Below the pieces are notes generated by a model that worked only from the letters and a program-made list of their open reading frames with translations, had not been told where the DNA came from and did not search any database. Positions 6,220-19,419 of a stretch of DNA of 24,502 bases are shown here, piece after piece. The stretch lies in the IMG/VR virus record IMGVR_UViG_3300044644_001149, positions 1-24,502 of that record; one strand, 5' to 3'. How positions within the stretch are numbered: the stretch's first letter is position 1; every line of letters begins with the position of its first letter. The stretch is from a virus. A program made the translations under genes and the position numbers.

Positions 6220-6226
6220 ATAAATA
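6219..6226 (+). promoter_or_regulatory. T4-type late promoter TATAAATA
   Basis: Exact match to the T4 late -10 box, fused to the T-tract of the terminator. Expected start is near 6232, giving a leader of about 17 bases before ATG 6249. It should drive the first virion-associated gene of the late block. Confidence 0.85.
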
Positions 6227-6248: not shown

Positions 6249-7184
6249 ATGGATTCTAAAGAACTTAGAGGTTTGTGTGAAGCTTATACTGCTGTTTACG
6301 ATGAAGAACTCAGAGATGAGTTAGAAGAAATGTCAGATGAATTTGCTGGCATTGAAGATTTAACCGATGATGAAATTGATGCAATTGTTGAAGAAACAAT
6401 TGATGAGATGCTTGATGAAGGATATGAATTTGATGAAGTAGAGCAAATTTTTGAAGAAGTTCTTTCGGAAGCAAGAGTTGATATGGCAGCTCGTGCTGCT
6501 GCAAGAAAAAAGGAAATGGCAGCATCGGAAAAGTCTGCAAAAGAAGCAAGACGTAGAGGTGCAGAAGTAGTTAGAAAAGAAAAAAGAGCAGAAGCAATTT
6601 CTAAAGTGAAGGGTGCTGTTAAGTCTGCACTTGGAAAAGCAAAAGCAGCAGTTAAATCTGGTGTTGCAAAAGCAAAAGAAGCTGGAAAAGAAGCAAAGTT
6701 TCGTGCAGTAGATAAACCAGTAGCTGCTTATGCTACTAAAAGAAATCTTCATCCTGCCGCAGGAATGGCAGCAAGATCAAAAGATCCTGAAAAGAGAAGA
6801 GGACTAAGAGCAAAAGTTGCTGCTGATATCAAAGGCAGAATTAAAAAGAAAATTGCTCAGGCACAAGTAGGTGCTTATAGTGCTGCAAGAAAAGCTGGAC
6901 AGGCAGCATCTGATGTTGCCGGAAGAGCAAAACAAAGTGCAAAAAATATTAAGGCAAAAACCAAAAGGGGAGTTAAGAGTGCAATAGGTGCAGCAGCTTC
7001 TAAAGTTGCATCTGGAGCATCTGGACTTGCTACAAGAATGGCAACGGAAGAAATTGATGTTTATGATGTAGTTCTTGAGTATCTTCTTGGTGGAGGTTAT
7101 GCTGAGACACAAGAAGCAGCAGAAAAAATTATGTTAAATATGAGTGAAGAGTGGAAAAACGAAATTATTGCTAAGTGTGATTGA
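6249..7184 (+). CDS. late virion-associated protein, acidic head and Lys/Ala-rich body (311 aa)
   Basis: Probably a virion or internal head protein; function unproven. Residues 18-74 are strongly acidic (Asp/Glu-rich) and residues 75-260 are Lys/Arg/Ala-rich and repetitive, like a DNA-binding tail. The last 45 residues return to an ordinary helical module (YDVVLEYLLGG..., NMSEEW). The charge switch falls exactly at VLSE74|A75, which fits the T4 prohead protease gp21 cleavage rule (L/I/V)xE|A. A second match is LCE11|A12 near the N-terminus. A late promoter at 6219 and a terminator-like hairpin at 7209 bound it. There is no good ribosome binding site before ATG 6249. The low-complexity middle makes homology searches hard, and homologues are probably annotated as structural or hypothetical. 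It could be a scaffold or an internal protein instead. Confidence 0.72.
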   Translation: MDSKELRGLCEAYTAVYDEELRDELEEMSDEFAGIEDLTDDEIDAIVEETIDEMLDEGYEFDEVEQIFEEVLSEARVDMAARAAARKKEMAASEKSAKEARRRGAEVVRKEKRAEAISKVKGAVKSALGKAKAAVKSGVAKAKEAGKEAKFRAVDKPVAAYATKRNLHPAAGMAARSKDPEKRRGLRAKVAADIKGRIKKKIAQAQVGAYSAARKAGQAASDVAGRAKQSAKNIKAKTKRGVKSAIGAAASKVASGASGLATRMATEEIDVYDVVLEYLLGGGYAETQEAAEKIMLNMSEEWKNEIIAKCD

Positions 7185-7253: not shown

Positions 7254-7327
7254 GGGGATATAGCTCAGTTGGTAGTAGCGCTTGCTTTGCAAGCAAGATG
7301 TCATCGGTTCGAGTCCGATTATCTCCA
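7254..7327 (+). tRNA. tRNA-Ala(TGC)
   Basis: Acceptor GGGGATA pairs with TATCTCC, discriminator A. The anticodon stem CTTGC/GCAAG carries loop TTTGCAA with anticodon TGC. The T-arm is ATCGG/CCGAT. CCA is not encoded. The D-stem is GCTC against TAGC, with one mismatch where GAGC is usual. This tRNA lies alone in the late block, more than 12 kb from the other tRNAs. Confidence 0.95.
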
Positions 7328-7348: not shown

Positions 7349-7356
7349 AATAAATA
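7349..7356 (+). promoter_or_regulatory. late promoter variant AATAAATA
   Basis: AATAAATA with an expected start near 7362, giving a leader of about 15 bases before ATG 7377. It competes or cooperates with the CATAAATA motif 23 bases upstream. The surroundings are AT-rich, so confidence is moderate. Confidence 0.55.
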
Positions 7357-7376: not shown

Positions 7377-8657
7377 ATGAAGAGTTTCTCCCAATTTTTA
7401 TTTGAAGCAGCACAATCACAAGCATCAATGCAAGCAAAAAAACTTGGATTGCGTGGAGATGGCCACGGTGGTTGGTTAGATCGTTCTGGGAAAACCATAG
7501 CAAGAACTGAAGATGGGAAATTAAAGTTTATTGATGGACGACAAGCATCAACAAAACAGGAACCAAAACAATCCGTAGGATCTACTCCTACACAACAATC
7601 AAAAACAGTAACTTCCACACCTACTACTTCTACTCCTCAAAAACCGAAAGTAGAACCTAAAGATCAAGTACCAAAAGAAGGTGATACTCTTACTGTAGTC
7701 TTTGGAAGATTTAATCCTCCAACAATAGGACACGAAAAACTTTTACAATCAGCAAAAAGAATTTCTGTTGGTGGAGATGTCAAAATATATCCATCAAGAA
7801 CTCAAGATCCTAAAAAGAATCCTTTGCCACCAGATACAAAAATCTCATATATGAGAAAAATGTTTCCAAATTTTGATGAAAATATTATTAATGATCCAAA
7901 TATGAAAACAATTTTTGATGTTCTTATAAATGCAAATAAAGAGGGATATTCAAATATTAATTTAGTGGTAGGTTCTGATCGTCAATCTGAATTTGAAAAT
8001 CTAGCTCAAAAGTATAATGGTGATTTGTATACTTTTGATTTAATTCGGGTTGTTTCTGCAGGTATAAGAGATGCTGATGCTGAGGGTGTGGAGGGAATGT
8101 CAGCTTCTAAAATGAGAAAAGCAGTAATGGATAATGATTTTAATTCATTCCGTAGAGGAACTCCAAAAACACTAGATGATGGAGACACTCAAGCACTTTT
8201 TGATGCTGTTCGTCAGGGAATGGGTGTTAAGAAAACAAAAGTTAAAAAAGAATCATATTCACTTTGGGAAATTGCTCCAAAGTTTGATATGAAAAATCTT
8301 CGTGAAAATTATGTAAGAGGTAATATCTTTAGAATAGGTGACAAAGTGGAAAATTTAAATACTGGATTGATTGGAGAAGTAATGCGTAGAGGAACCAATC
8401 ATCTTATTTGTGTAACTGAAGAGGGTTATATGTTTAAATCTTGGATTAAAGATTTGATGGAATATACTGAAGTAAAAATGGATAAAATGTATAGACTTCC
8501 TGGAAAGCCAAATACATTGGTAGGAACCACTGGATATTTGAAATATGCAGCACAACAAACTCCAGATTCAAAACTTGGAAAGAAAAATTTGCAACAAGGT
8601 GGCAGGGCATTTTTGGATTTCATAAATAAGTATAAGAAAAAGAAAGTAAGTGCTTAA
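7377..8657 (+). CDS. nucleotidyltransferase with capsid-targeting-like N-terminus (426 aa)
   Basis: Multi-domain protein. Residues 1-11 (MKSFSQFLFEA) closely resemble the T4 internal-protein capsid-targeting peptide, which I recall as MKTYQEFIAEA, with the cleavage point LFE10|A11 at the same position. Residues 56-100 are a Ser/Thr/Pro/Gln linker. Residues 104-285 form a cytidylyltransferase/NMN adenylyltransferase-type domain: FGRFNPPTIGH (109-119, HxGH-like as TIGH), a basic SYMRKMF segment near 157 and MSASKMRKAV (241-250, matching the ISxxxxR motif). Residues 316-360 look like a KOW/SH3-like barrel, and the end is Lys-rich. Known nucleotidyltransferases of this class join a nucleotide to a phosphate-bearing substrate; the substrate here is unknown (NMN or phosphopantetheine are candidates). 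Late promoters at 7326 and 7349 and flanking virion genes fit a packaged, injected enzyme. Packaging is inferred. Confidence 0.85.
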   Translation: MKSFSQFLFEAAQSQASMQAKKLGLRGDGHGGWLDRSGKTIARTEDGKLKFIDGRQASTKQEPKQSVGSTPTQQSKTVTSTPTTSTPQKPKVEPKDQVPKEGDTLTVVFGRFNPPTIGHEKLLQSAKRISVGGDVKIYPSRTQDPKKNPLPPDTKISYMRKMFPNFDENIINDPNMKTIFDVLINANKEGYSNINLVVGSDRQSEFENLAQKYNGDLYTFDLIRVVSAGIRDADAEGVEGMSASKMRKAVMDNDFNSFRRGTPKTLDDGDTQALFDAVRQGMGVKKTKVKKESYSLWEIAPKFDMKNLRENYVRGNIFRIGDKVENLNTGLIGEVMRRGTNHLICVTEEGYMFKSWIKDLMEYTEVKMDKMYRLPGKPNTLVGTTGYLKYAAQQTPDSKLGKKNLQQGGRAFLDFINKYKKKKVSA

Positions 8658-8659
8658 AA

Positions 8660-10705
8660 ATGTCCACTAATTCTCTGAATGATATTTCTAAAATATATCT
8701 GGAACAGGTCGCTGTTTCTGAAGCAAAAGTAGATAAATTAAAACCAGAGCACGAAAGGGCCACTGCAAGAGATAAAAGAAGTGAATTTTCTGATCTTCCA
8801 GGATCTGGTGCAAGACGTGCGAGAAGAATTGCTCATCGAGAAAGAGATGAAATGAGAAAGGATGCGAAAGATATTCGTAGGGGTAGATTAGATGCACCTC
8901 AATTTCAGGGAAAGACTGGGCAAGAACGCATTACCCAAGTTAAAAAAGCAATGGGTATGAAGGAAGAAAAAAAACCCAATGATGGCAATCTAGCAAATAA
9001 TTATCCTCCATATGATAAAGTCACCAGAGGAGATGTAATTGCTGGTAGACTTGGTAAAGATGAAATGGGTGGAAAGAAAAAAGTAACTAAAGAAGGATAT
9101 TCTAATTGGAGACAAGATCTTTCTGAAGTTCTTGGTAATGTAAAGGACGATAAAAAAATTGCAGAGAAAAAAATTAATAATAAAATTACAATTAATCCTA
9201 AACTTGATCTTGGTGAAGCAATTGAAAATCTTGGTGGATCTTTAGTTGAAATGGTAGAACTTGATGAAGAATTTATTTATGAAACTGCTAATATTGCAAC
9301 TGAATATTTTTATGAAATGGGTTTGAATGAGTTTGGGATTGGCATTTTAATTGAAGAACTTGGACTTGAAGGTTTTGTTGATTTTGTCTTTGAATTATCT
9401 GAGGAATATACTTTAACTGAAGCAAGAAGAAGTGGTAAAATTGAACCAGTGACTGCCAAAGGAACGGCATTTAAATCTGGAAAACCGACTGGAAAATCAT
9501 TACAAAGACTTCGTGCCCAAAAAGCAGCAAGAAAAGAAGCAGAAGCAAAAGCATCTTCATCAAAACCATCAGGAATGAAAGCAGCACTTCAAAGACAGTC
9601 TGCTGTTGCAAGTGCTAAAAAACAACAACCCACAAAAAAACCAATTAAGGATAGAATTGCTAAAGGAGTTTTAAGTGCTCTTGATGCATATCAGAAGGGT
9701 ATGGAACGTCATAGAGCAGCAACTGCAACTGCTGGTAAAGCATTGAGAGTTGCTGGAAAGGGTGCTTCTGAGTTTGGAAGAGGAGTTGCCTCTGGAGTAA
9801 AAACTGTAGGTAAAGTTGCAAAAGATGTTCGTAGAGTTGTTGGGGAAAGTGAAGAAATTGATGAAGCAAAAGTAGAATCTGGGGAAAGTGAAGCAACTAA
9901 AAAGGACATCAGAAGTCGTCGTTATGTTGAAAAAACAAAAGGTGCCGAAGGTGTAAGAAATTATGATGCAATGGGTTCTACTGCTCCTAATTGGGTGACT
10001 GCAGCAAGACGTAGAGCACATAAAGCGGAAAGAGGAATTAAAAGAGAAGAGTTTGAATTGGATGAAAAAACTTTAAGTGCTGCTGAGACTAAAAAAAAAG
10101 AAGAAATTGTAAAGTCAATGAAGGATAAAGCAGCAGATTTTGAAAAGAGATATCCTGGTCGTGGTAAAGAAGTGATGTATGCGACTGCTACTAAGATGGC
10201 AAAGAAAATGTCTGAGCAGGCAATGGAACTACAACCAAAATCTCAGCAATCATCACAACCTCAAAAATCAGATCAGCAACAAAAAAAGTTGCAGCAACAA
10301 CAAGATAGAATGAGACAACAAGAAGTTCAAATTCTTCAAAGAAAACTTCAAACATTAAGATCTGCTCCTAAAGGATCTGATCCTTCTATTATGGCTGGAT
10401 ATGAACCAGAAGGTGGAATGGTTGATGAGGCAAGATCTTCAGAAAAGCGTGGATTGGGTTCTCCCGAATCACCATTATCGTATCCAGGAAGAACGGTACA
10501 AAAACAAAGAGGTGAAAGGGGTGGAAGGCACCAATATAGTGGTAGTGTAGAATATGGTGGTGCAGCTGCAGAGAGGGGCAAAAAGAAATCAGATCCTTAT
10601 TCTCAGGCACAAAGATTGAGAAAACTTAGTAATTATCCTGAAATTACTGGAAAATATTCTGGGATGCAAAGTAAAAAAAGAGATATTGGATCCAGATTTG
10701 ACTGA
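8660..10705 (+). CDS. large low-complexity virion structural protein, likely processed (681 aa)
   Basis: Likely cyanophage structural or internal head protein. It begins three bases after the upstream stop with no ribosome binding site of its own, so it is probably coupled. Residues 22-180 are basic and helical, 181-250 acidic. Residues 255-395 are Lys/Ala/Gly-rich, resembling the body of the gene at 6249. Residues 495-515 hold the segment RYPGRGKEVMYATATKMAKK, which I recall from other marine T4-like virion proteins. Residues 520-560 are a Gln-rich coiled coil, and the tail is Arg/Gly/Ser-rich. Matches to the gp21 cleavage rule lie at VSE21|A, LGE186|A, LTE254|A, IDE402|A and VDE590|A, near changes in composition. 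Function is unproven; an injected DNA-binding protein or a scaffold are the main options. Confidence 0.78.
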   Translation: MSTNSLNDISKIYLEQVAVSEAKVDKLKPEHERATARDKRSEFSDLPGSGARRARRIAHRERDEMRKDAKDIRRGRLDAPQFQGKTGQERITQVKKAMGMKEEKKPNDGNLANNYPPYDKVTRGDVIAGRLGKDEMGGKKKVTKEGYSNWRQDLSEVLGNVKDDKKIAEKKINNKITINPKLDLGEAIENLGGSLVEMVELDEEFIYETANIATEYFYEMGLNEFGIGILIEELGLEGFVDFVFELSEEYTLTEARRSGKIEPVTAKGTAFKSGKPTGKSLQRLRAQKAARKEAEAKASSSKPSGMKAALQRQSAVASAKKQQPTKKPIKDRIAKGVLSALDAYQKGMERHRAATATAGKALRVAGKGASEFGRGVASGVKTVGKVAKDVRRVVGESEEIDEAKVESGESEATKKDIRSRRYVEKTKGAEGVRNYDAMGSTAPNWVTAARRRAHKAERGIKREEFELDEKTLSAAETKKKEEIVKSMKDKAADFEKRYPGRGKEVMYATATKMAKKMSEQAMELQPKSQQSSQPQKSDQQQKKLQQQQDRMRQQEVQILQRKLQTLRSAPKGSDPSIMAGYEPEGGMVDEARSSEKRGLGSPESPLSYPGRTVQKQRGERGGRHQYSGSVEYGGAAAERGKKKSDPYSQAQRLRKLSNYPEITGKYSGMQSKKRDIGSRFD

Positions 10706-10990: not shown

Positions 10991-10997
10991 ATAAATA
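10990..10997 (+). promoter_or_regulatory. T4-type late promoter TATAAATA
   Basis: Exact TATAAATA fused to the terminator T-tract. Expected start is near 11003. The gene at 11030 has GGAAGAAG (11019-11026) just upstream of its ATG. Confidence 0.87.
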
Positions 10998-11029: not shown

Positions 11030-11791
11030 ATGGCACTCTGGGGAAATAATGATGCTAAAGGTTCTGGTGGAACAGTATCTCTCAATTATGATACTCTTAT
11101 TGTAACTGGTAGTGGAACCACTTTTGGGCAAGTAGGTGCTGCTGCAACTGGTGATGTAATTAGATTTGGTAGTAGAACGGGTACTTATTATGGTGATGCA
11201 GTAATTGTTGGTATTGAAAGTGCAACCCAACTTTCTATTGGTAGAACCTCTGGGTTAAGTGGTGCTGCTATTTCTGGAGTTCAATTTGATGTTAGTGAGC
11301 TTCCAAAATATACAATTAAAGATAAAAGATATCAACAGATTTTTACAGATTCCACTGAAACTTCACTTGTTCTTTCTACAACAGCATCTTTAACTGCTGG
11401 CATTGGAACAGGTATTGTATACGTTGAAAGTACAACAGGAATCACTACTGGAGACACTCTTGTAAGTGGTAATACATCAAAGGTTGTGGTTTCTTTTGCT
11501 TCAACATCTGTTTCTCTTGCATCTACAATTGCATCTGCAATTGCTTCAGGGAGTAAGGTTGATTTTACTAGAGTGACTGGTGGTTATGAAGCATCAATTT
11601 ATGGTGTTGCTGAAGGTGGAATGGATTCTGCTGCAGGCACTGTATATGAATTAACTCACGAAGGTTGGGTTGGTATTCAAACTTATATGGATGCGGAAGG
11701 AAATCTAAGAGTTAAAAAAGAGACTCTTGTGGCAATGTCTGGAATTACCACTGGAAATATTCCTTTATATGATAGTAACCCATTGGTTTGA
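11030..11791 (+). CDS. virion structural protein, MALWGNN type (253 aa)
   Basis: A Gly/Ser/Thr-rich, beta-strand-dominated protein beginning MALWGNNDAKGSG, a start I recall from conserved structural proteins of marine T4-like phages; its exact place in the particle is not known to me. Residues 5-90 are beta-rich with many Gly-Thr repeats. Residues 120-185 are almost entirely Ser/Thr/Ala/Gly/Val (for example STTGITTGDTLVSG). The C-terminal 60 residues hold the aromatic HEGWVGIQTYMDAEGNLR segment. There are no cysteines, and no signal peptide. A perfect late promoter and a good ribosome binding site predict high late expression. A neck, tail or capsid-decoration role are all possible. The next gene starts six bases after its stop. 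Confidence 0.8.
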   Translation: MALWGNNDAKGSGGTVSLNYDTLIVTGSGTTFGQVGAAATGDVIRFGSRTGTYYGDAVIVGIESATQLSIGRTSGLSGAAISGVQFDVSELPKYTIKDKRYQQIFTDSTETSLVLSTTASLTAGIGTGIVYVESTTGITTGDTLVSGNTSKVVVSFASTSVSLASTIASAIASGSKVDFTRVTGGYEASIYGVAEGGMDSAAGTVYELTHEGWVGIQTYMDAEGNLRVKKETLVAMSGITTGNIPLYDSNPLV

Positions 11792-11797
11792 TAATAT

Positions 11798-12190
11798 ATG
11801 ATTTTTAATGAATTGAATGAGGATAATTTTCTTTTATTTGCAATTAAACATTATGAAAATCCTCAAGCAGTAACTAGAGAAGATTTTGATAAAGATCTAA
11901 ATCATTTTAAGTATATTAAAAGATTACTGAAAAGATATAAAAATAATGGTGAACTTAAAACTCACCTTCTTCTCAATCACTTTATTATTCTTTATAATAT
12001 TTTTGGAGAAGCAACAACTCCTATGTTGTTTTTTAAAATTGAAAAAGACCTTTGGTCTCCTGTGAAAAGTTTTATTATTTTTTTGAATAGACTTCCAGAA
12101 TATCCAAAGTCAAGCATTCACGATATACAAGTTGATTTAAATTGTTTATCAAAACTTCAACAAATCTATAATGGACCACAAGAAACTTGA
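11798..12190 (+). CDS. conserved hypothetical protein of the late operon (130 aa)
   Basis: I do not recognise a function, but the type (MIFNELNEDNFLLFAIKHY...) looks like a small helical protein widely seen beside virion genes in marine T4-like phages. It is all-helical in appearance, rich in Leu, Ile, Phe, Asn and Lys, with a basic middle (YIKRLLKRYKNNGE). It also has a hydrophobic region around residues 52-75, which is probably a buried core rather than a membrane span. The ATG is six bases downstream of the structural gene stop, so it shares the late promoter at 10990. Its last 20 bases overlap the next gene in another frame. Confidence 0.7.
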   Translation: MIFNELNEDNFLLFAIKHYENPQAVTREDFDKDLNHFKYIKRLLKRYKNNGELKTHLLLNHFIILYNIFGEATTPMLFFKIEKDLWSPVKSFIIFLNRLPEYPKSSIHDIQVDLNCLSKLQQIYNGPQET

Positions 12191-12374
12191 TAAGATTATT
12201 TCAATCATCCGTGAGCAAATGGTAGCAAATGCTCCTGGAGGATCTGGTGGATTTAGCGGATCTGTTGACCCGAAAGGTCCTACTGCTGGGTTTGATCCTA
12301 TTATGGGGAAAGTTCAAAAAAGATATATGAAAGGAAAAAGAAAACCGTGGTTAGATTATCTAAAAAATAAATAA
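12171..12374 (+). CDS. hypothetical basic protein of the late operon (67 aa)
   Basis: Small protein in three parts: a charged helix (MDHKKLDKIISIIREQM), a Gly/Pro/Ser-rich linker (residues 21-47, with GFDPIMGKV), and a strongly basic end (KRYMKGKRKPWLDYLKNK). I have a memory of similar basic tails (GFDP.MGK.....RR) in other marine phages, always hypothetical. It overlaps the upstream gene by 20 bases, so it is probably translated by re-initiation. The basic tail may bind DNA or an acidic partner in the virion. The stop TAA lies within a late promoter motif. Confidence 0.65.
   Translation: MDHKKLDKIISIIREQMVANAPGGSGGFSGSVDPKGPTAGFDPIMGKVQKRYMKGKRKPWLDYLKNK
12366..12373 (+). promoter_or_regulatory. 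late promoter variant AATAAATA
   Basis: AATAAATA overlapping the stop of the 67-aa gene; expected start is near 12379, leading into the membrane protein gene at 12430. Confidence 0.6.
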
Positions 12375-18957: not shown

Positions 18958-19056
18958 ATTATGAGACTTTGAGTGCGATTTAGAGCCCAGGAGATTGCCC
19001 CTTGAGAAAGGGGAAGTGCGTTTTCTCTATTGGGATGTAGAGTTCTATGCAAATTA
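18958..19056 (+). promoter_or_regulatory. structured leader of the RlpA-like gene
   Basis: About 100 bases with no ORF. It holds a perfect 6-bp hairpin CCCCTT-GAGA-AAGGGG (18998-19013) with a GNRA-type tetraloop, flanked by a direct repeat AGTGCG (18972-18977 and 19015-19020). TAGAG (18981-18985) could pair with CTCTA (19025-19029), and CCCA (18986-18989) with TGGG (19031-19034). I do not recognise a known riboswitch. Confidence 0.4.
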
Positions 19057-19419
19057 ATGCTTTTAAAAACACTTTCAATTCTTGCTTTTGGTCTAGTCGG
19101 ATTGGCACCCGTAACAGCAAAGGCAGCGAGCGGATGTTCCCTCGCATCACATTATGGAATCGGTGATGGATATCATGGGCAGACAACTGCTAACGGTGAA
19201 AGATATAATGCTTACGGAAAATCAGTAGCACATCGGTGGTTACCATTTGGTACTAAATTAAGAGTGACAAATCAATCAAATGGTAAATCAGTAATTGTGC
19301 GTGTAAATGATCGAGGACCTTATGTAGGTGGTAGAGACCTTGACCTGTCTTACGGTGCGTTCTCTTCTATTGCTCACCCAGGGCAAGGAGTCGCTAACAT
19401 CTGCTATGCAACTTTATAG
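19057..19419 (+). CDS. secreted RlpA-like double-psi beta-barrel protein (120 aa)
   Basis: N-terminal signal peptide: positively charged MLLK, hydrophobic core (TLSILAFGLVGLAPV) and a likely signal peptidase site TAKA|A near residue 23. The mature part is an RlpA-like double-psi beta-barrel: ASHYG, TTANGERYN, AHRWLPFGTKLRVTN, NGKSVIVRVNDRGPYV and RDLDLS match the family motifs in order, including the conserved Asp of DRGP. RlpA proteins act on peptidoglycan as lytic transglycosylases or bind it at the septum. This product would work in the periplasm, perhaps weakening the wall for lysis or remodelling it during infection. The longer in-frame start at 19030 would bury the signal peptide, so ATG 19057 is preferred. 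It lacks the SPOR domain of full-length RlpA. Confidence 0.87.
   Translation: MLLKTLSILAFGLVGLAPVTAKAASGCSLASHYGIGDGYHGQTTANGERYNAYGKSVAHRWLPFGTKLRVTNQSNGKSVIVRVNDRGPYVGGRDLDLSYGAFSSIAHPGQGVANICYATL

Follow-up and report, generated by a model that had tools for sequence, protein, structure and literature searches.

Why would a phage nucleotidyltransferase begin with a peptide that resembles the label by which T4 directs internal proteins into its head? The question is raised by an open reading frame in the 24,502-nt stretch of DNA analyzed here (the window), whose phage is a marine T4-like virus of cyanobacteria. The initial annotation had likened residues 1 to 11 of the encoded enzyme to a T4 targeting peptide and proposed that the enzyme is packaged with the DNA. 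The gene is laid out as follows.

7377-8657, + strand: enzyme ORF, 426 aa, ATG start
7377-7409, + strand: residues 1-11, capsid-targeting-like peptide MKSFSQFLFEA (the tag), from comparison with T4 ipII/ipIII, scores, shuffles and conservation
7404-7406, + strand: codon of Glu10, after which a gp21-type cut is predicted from the sequence, with a mature start at Ala11
7410-7559, + strand: residues 12-61, 'GHGGW' module, GDGHGGWxDRSGKxxARTExGKLKF, from a phrog_3561 match to residues 2-61, tblastn of residues 1-63 and alignment
7560-7688, + strand: residues 62-104, variable linker, predicted disordered (pLDDT <50 for residues 55-100)
7689-8234, + strand: residues 105-286, nucleotidyltransferase (adenylyltransferase-like) domain, from phrog_395, a weak TIGR01526 match and PDB fold matches
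7701-7733, + strand: FGRFNPPTIGH, (H/T)xGH nucleotide-binding motif, in mostly invariant alignment columns
8100-8117, + strand: SASKMR, which we take to be the counterpart of the C-terminal ISSTxxR motif of adenylyltransferases; SAS and Arg are invariant in the homologue alignment
8292-8462, + strand: residues 306-362, strand-rich C-terminal module, from phrog_4808 and phrog_22379 matches and predicted strands

Packaging of the enzyme through a T4-type capsid-targeting sequence is the best explanation of this arrangement, and we consider it likely. Because the first ten residues match the T4 label and the same label heads the enzyme detected in virions of relatives, the enzyme probably travels in the particle and is delivered along with the DNA.

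The N-terminal peptide and the T4 targeting sequence

T4 ipII and ipIII both start with MKTYQEFIAEA in the T4 genome (NC_000866), the peptide that the initial annotation had quoted. The resemblance it described is borne out: five of the 11 residues are identical, four more are conservative (S/T, F/Y, Q/E, L/I), and L8-F9-E10|A11 fits the gp21 pattern (L/I)-x-E|A. When the 379 possible starts of window ORFs of at least 60 aa were scored against the T4 peptide with BLOSUM62, the enzyme start reached 31 and the next best 19, and shuffles of the enzyme's own residues scored as high in 3 of 200,000 cases (about 1.5e-5). The tag regex, M[KRQN].[FYLI]..F[LIMFV].E, matched a single one of the window's ORF starts; applied to 2,659 internal Met codons from four sequences, it matched none. 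Its strict matches in T4 are three, ipII, ipIII and gene 61.1 (18966-19130 of NC_000866, - strand), whose product starts with the tag-like MKTFKEFIKED.

Homologues of the enzyme were found in 533 phage records, mainly cyanomyophages. Among 55 distinct N-termini of close homologues, K2, F7 and E10 were kept in all 55, L8 and A11 in 54 and F4 in 53, and positions 3, 5, 6, 9 and 12 onward were variable; this set was partly retrieved through the peptide just behind the tag. A second set was therefore retrieved from viral contigs by the catalytic domain alone, avoiding choice by peptide. Aligning N-termini across homologues had been proposed at the outset as a check on the targeting reading, and in this second set the tag sits at the first ATG of 75 of the 77 homologues with an intact start. 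That unfiltered rate is the one to quote, as one conservation set was regex-filtered, which fixes some positions. Overall, residues 1, 2, 4, 7, 8, 10 and 11 are constrained and those between them vary. The tag was absent from three distant jumbo-phage homologues (CBB, slurp01 and Pseudomonas 30-3), which start at or near the catalytic domain.

The constrained positions include those with reported roles in T4, where residues 4 and 7 of IPIII matter for targeting and residues 8 and 10 for processing, and where gp21 cleaves after L/I-x-E (PMC9026906). Of 17 tag-bearing records, 13 yielded a gp21 homologue (PF03420), relatives of the window and of S-SCSM1 among them; the 14 control genomes yielded none. 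Head genes are absent from the 24.5-kb window, so that the phage's own gp21 is not seen in it. The major capsid proteins of S-SCSM1, S-SZBM1 and S-CREM2 bear similar sites (the matching cyanophage capsid sites are SFLAEAP, GILTEAA and GLLTEAP).

The system resembles the capsid-targeting sequence of T4 IPII and IPIII (Mullaney and Black 1996, cited in PMC9026906) in its 10-residue N-terminal peptide, which is aromatic at positions 4 and 7, has L/I at 8 and E at 10 and is followed by A at 11, and in the gp21-type protease of the phage lineage. Unlike those internal proteins, the cargo here is a 426-aa multi-domain nucleotidyltransferase of a cyanophage lineage, bearing an extra shared module behind the tag.

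Catalytic domain and gene neighborhood

The enzyme falls in the phage nucleotidyltransferase family phrog_395 (1e-103). Confidence in its structure model is largely confined to the catalytic domain (pLDDT mostly 80-90), for which the best PDB fold matches were PPAT/CoaD, followed by NadD and NadM, at 11-16% identity and target-based TM-scores of 0.55-0.70. Both elements of the HxGH-type adenylyltransferase signature, FNPPTIGH and SASKMR, are conserved on the matching fold. Profile matches to adenylyltransferase-type families, such as TIGR01526, fall below the curated cut-offs, and searching solved structures with a profile built on the alignment of the enzyme returned nothing meaningful. As the best structural matches of the model are PPAT, NadD and NadM, assignment as an adenylyltransferase-type nucleotidyltransferase (NMNAT/NadD/PPAT kind) is supported, on matches that do not fix the substrate.

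The flanking modules are shared more widely. The 'GHGGW' module also lies behind the tag in phage kinases and other virion proteins (the alignment comprised S-CREM2 ORF14 and ORF12, the MA10 kinase, S-CRM01 g128 and S-SM1), and the module at residues 306-362 is common to other phage proteins. The tag and the 'GHGGW' module can be separated, since three homologues of the catalytic-domain set have the former and lack the latter.

The window shows synteny with a series of virion-protein genes in S-SCSM1, in the order SSCSM1_89, tRNA-Ala, 90, the enzyme, 92, 93, 95 and 97.

6249-7184, + strand: ORF homologous to virion protein SSCSM1_89; late-promoter motif at 6220
7254-7327, + strand: tRNA-Ala(TGC), also directly upstream in the S-SCSM1 cassette
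7350-7356, + strand: ATAAATA, T4-type late-promoter-like motif, 26 bp upstream of the enzyme ATG
8660-10705, + strand: ORF homologous to virion protein SSCSM1_92; late-promoter motif at 8622
11030-11791, + strand: ORF homologous to virion protein SSCSM1_95; late-promoter motif at 10991
12171-12374, + strand: 67-aa ORF homologous to virion protein SSCSM1_97 (phrog_696, 2.8e-8)

ATAAATA lies 26-38 bp upstream of the ATG in four cassette ORFs, that of the enzyme included, and upstream of none of seven replication-type genes in the window. In related loci, the motif precedes tagged enzymes in 33 of 68 cases versus 120 of 333 (P = 0.04) and other tagged cargo in 22 of 73 versus 158 of 1,027 (P = 0.002). 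The late-promoter motif and the virion-protein cassette fit the packaging reading, the motif as supporting evidence only because its enrichment in related loci is modest.

Both ORFs that flank the enzyme and the tRNA have strongly conserved N-terminal peptides of their own: MDSKELRGLCEAYTAVY in the upstream one (6249-6299; MDxKELRGLxEAYxxVY), which contains an LxE|A site, and MSxNPLNDISxVYLEQV in the downstream one (8660-8720). As the S-SCSM1 homologues of both ORFs are virion proteins, these peptides may be other targeting peptides. The 67-aa ORF shows similarity to the N-terminal arm of the major capsid protein.

Detection in virions and competing explanations

Homologues of the enzyme are reported as virion proteins in four publications: S-SCSM1 ORF91 (PMC9602691), S-SM1 T4-GC190 (PMC3037559), S-SZBM1 ORF140 (PMC9146016) and S-CREM2 ORF154 (PMC10665884). 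These virion NMNATs or cytidylyltransferases belong to the same protein family as the enzyme, and S-SCSM1 ORF91, 60% identical over the full length, also shares its domain order and gene neighborhood. All four carry the label: MKSFLQFLKEA in S-SCSM1, MKKFSAFLNEA in S-SM1, MKNFSSFLTEA in S-CREM2 and, one residue shorter, MRFRQFIIEA in S-SZBM1. Absence from virions, on which the initial annotation had staked its proposal, is thus contradicted for four homologues, but that of S-PM2 is listed in PMC3037559 as encoded and undetected in virions.

Tag presence could also be compared with virion content. In S-CREM2, all five annotated regex-tagged ORFs (6, 13, 14, 136 and 154: a SAM lyase/hydrolase, an APH-like kinase, the enzyme homologue and two hypothetical proteins) are among the 52 of 219 ORFs published as virion proteins (PMC10665884; P = 6.5e-4). 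Pooled over S-CREM2, S-SCSM1 and S-SZBM1, six of nine regex matches were detected in virions (P = 1.6e-3). S-SCSM1 ORF30 and S-SZBM1 ORF191, both tagged and about 105 aa long, are missing from their published virion lists. Another regex match, S-SZBM1 ORF57 (MQVIDDFLPEE), looks like chance and was discarded. Tagged proteins of about 105 aa form a conserved family (...SESVNISGDFNGNLY) encoded at 44215-44535 in S-SCSM1 and 122311-122628 in S-SZBM1, which recurs in several phages. S-CREM2 ORF12 (L002, 7704-10313, - strand), annotated as Cas9 and present in virions, carries a tag-like site and a GHGxY module; it had no Cas9 profile match in NCBIfam or PADLOC.

The tag might work and the enzyme be packaged, and yet act in assembly, as a core component or a protein retained after core breakdown, with no injected role. 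We regard this as unlikely. The low peptide counts of the enzyme, three in S-CREM2 (PMC10665884) and two in S-SZBM1 (PMC9146016), are akin to those of residual gp21 and speak for such a role, and the gene is kept as core in cyanophages according to PMC3037559, which fits assembly and effector alike. However, few columns of the alignment are as conserved as those of the catalytic motifs, and the tagless jumbo-phage homologues are free-standing enzymes.

Virion detection might otherwise reflect carry-over of an abundant enzyme whose N-terminal peptide does another job, for example as a docking helix. Carry-over was raised, and not excluded, by the authors of PMC9602691 and PMC10665884, and the S-PM2 result agrees with it. 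We nevertheless find it very improbable, as T4 internal proteins and many unrelated proteins begin with this 11-residue pattern, and as its presence predicts virion detection in S-CREM2. Chance likeness to the T4 sequence, conceivable for a peptide of only 11 residues with five identities, has next to nothing left in its favor given the shuffling result, the rank of the enzyme among the 379 starts and the conservation of the tag in 75 of 77 homologues.

By comparison, packaging by means of a capsid-targeting sequence came through every available computational test (position-specific conservation, N-terminal restriction, unrelated tagged proteins in phages most of which encode gp21, and tagless jumbo-phage homologues) and has the independent published mass spectrometry of four tagged relatives behind it. 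We infer the following course. The enzyme would be made late in infection, and its first ten residues would dock it onto the prohead core. A gp21-type protease of the phage would then cut after Glu10, as the site suggests, leaving a mature enzyme from Ala11 sealed in the head with the DNA. At infection it would enter the host and may act, to the benefit of the phage, before phage gene expression, with NMN/NaMN or a similar adenylate acceptor as the most likely substrate.

T4 has a packaged enzyme of this kind in Alt, an ADP-ribosyltransferase that is injected, acts on the host at once and is processed by gp21. The nucleotidyltransferase would resemble Alt in being a packaged enzyme and differs from it in that Alt has the N-terminal propeptide MELITELFDE and an unrelated fold. 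The published papers on the cyanophage enzyme report its presence in virions, and two of them discuss carry-over; in the passages searched, none names a targeting sequence. No paper naming the tag sequence in cyanophages was found in the open literature searched. Published cyanophage virion proteomes had left packaged versus carried-over nucleotidyltransferase undecided, and a conserved T4-type peptide on that very protein supplies a mechanism.

Tagged proteins of other families

A DNA pattern for the tag, run over viral contigs, gave at least 123 matches; among the matches listed, 119 were at the first in-frame ATG and 118 stood at the start of ORFs of at least 50 aa. All ten virus records searched had matches, and the reversed control had none. 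Metagenome bacterial contigs with tag matches, considered as host controls, were mostly phage-like sequence in bins and were set aside. At least 100 other tagged proteins in about 50 clusters were found among the matches listed, some of them further nucleotidyltransferases; the clusters include S-AdoMet lyase, GNAT, glucosaminidase, RlpA-type and several unknown families. This breadth of sequence matches suggests a general packaging signal with a wide packaged repertoire, virion presence having been compared for S-CREM2, S-SCSM1 and S-SZBM1.

In its broadest form, the proposal, to which we give an even chance, is that the heads of T4-like marine phages are loaded with a broad modular set of tagged enzymes (nucleotidyltransferase, SAM lyase, kinase, GNAT, glucosaminidase, RlpA-type and possibly ADP-ribosyltransferase) via one N-terminal address, sometimes with a shared 45-residue module behind it, and that a genome sequence would suffice to list the injected repertoire. 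Should the tag prove general, sequence could predict which proteins marine T4-like phages deliver as infection begins, enzymes altering host cofactors or countering defenses among them.

An ADP-ribosyltransferase-like motif was seen by eye in three tagged ORFs (L306, 1501-1962; L195, 3736-4149; L231, 1211-1858); this cargo gave one weak family match, to phrog_5470, and a low-confidence model (pLDDT 49) that was left unused. An RlpA-like ORF in the window (19030-19419) has an apparent signal peptide and no tag, and RlpA-type ORFs in L188 and L249 are tagged. In L290, five ORFs between 5915 and 9422 on the - strand each begin with the tag (MKTFKQF..., MKSFKSF...) and may form a cassette of packaged proteins.
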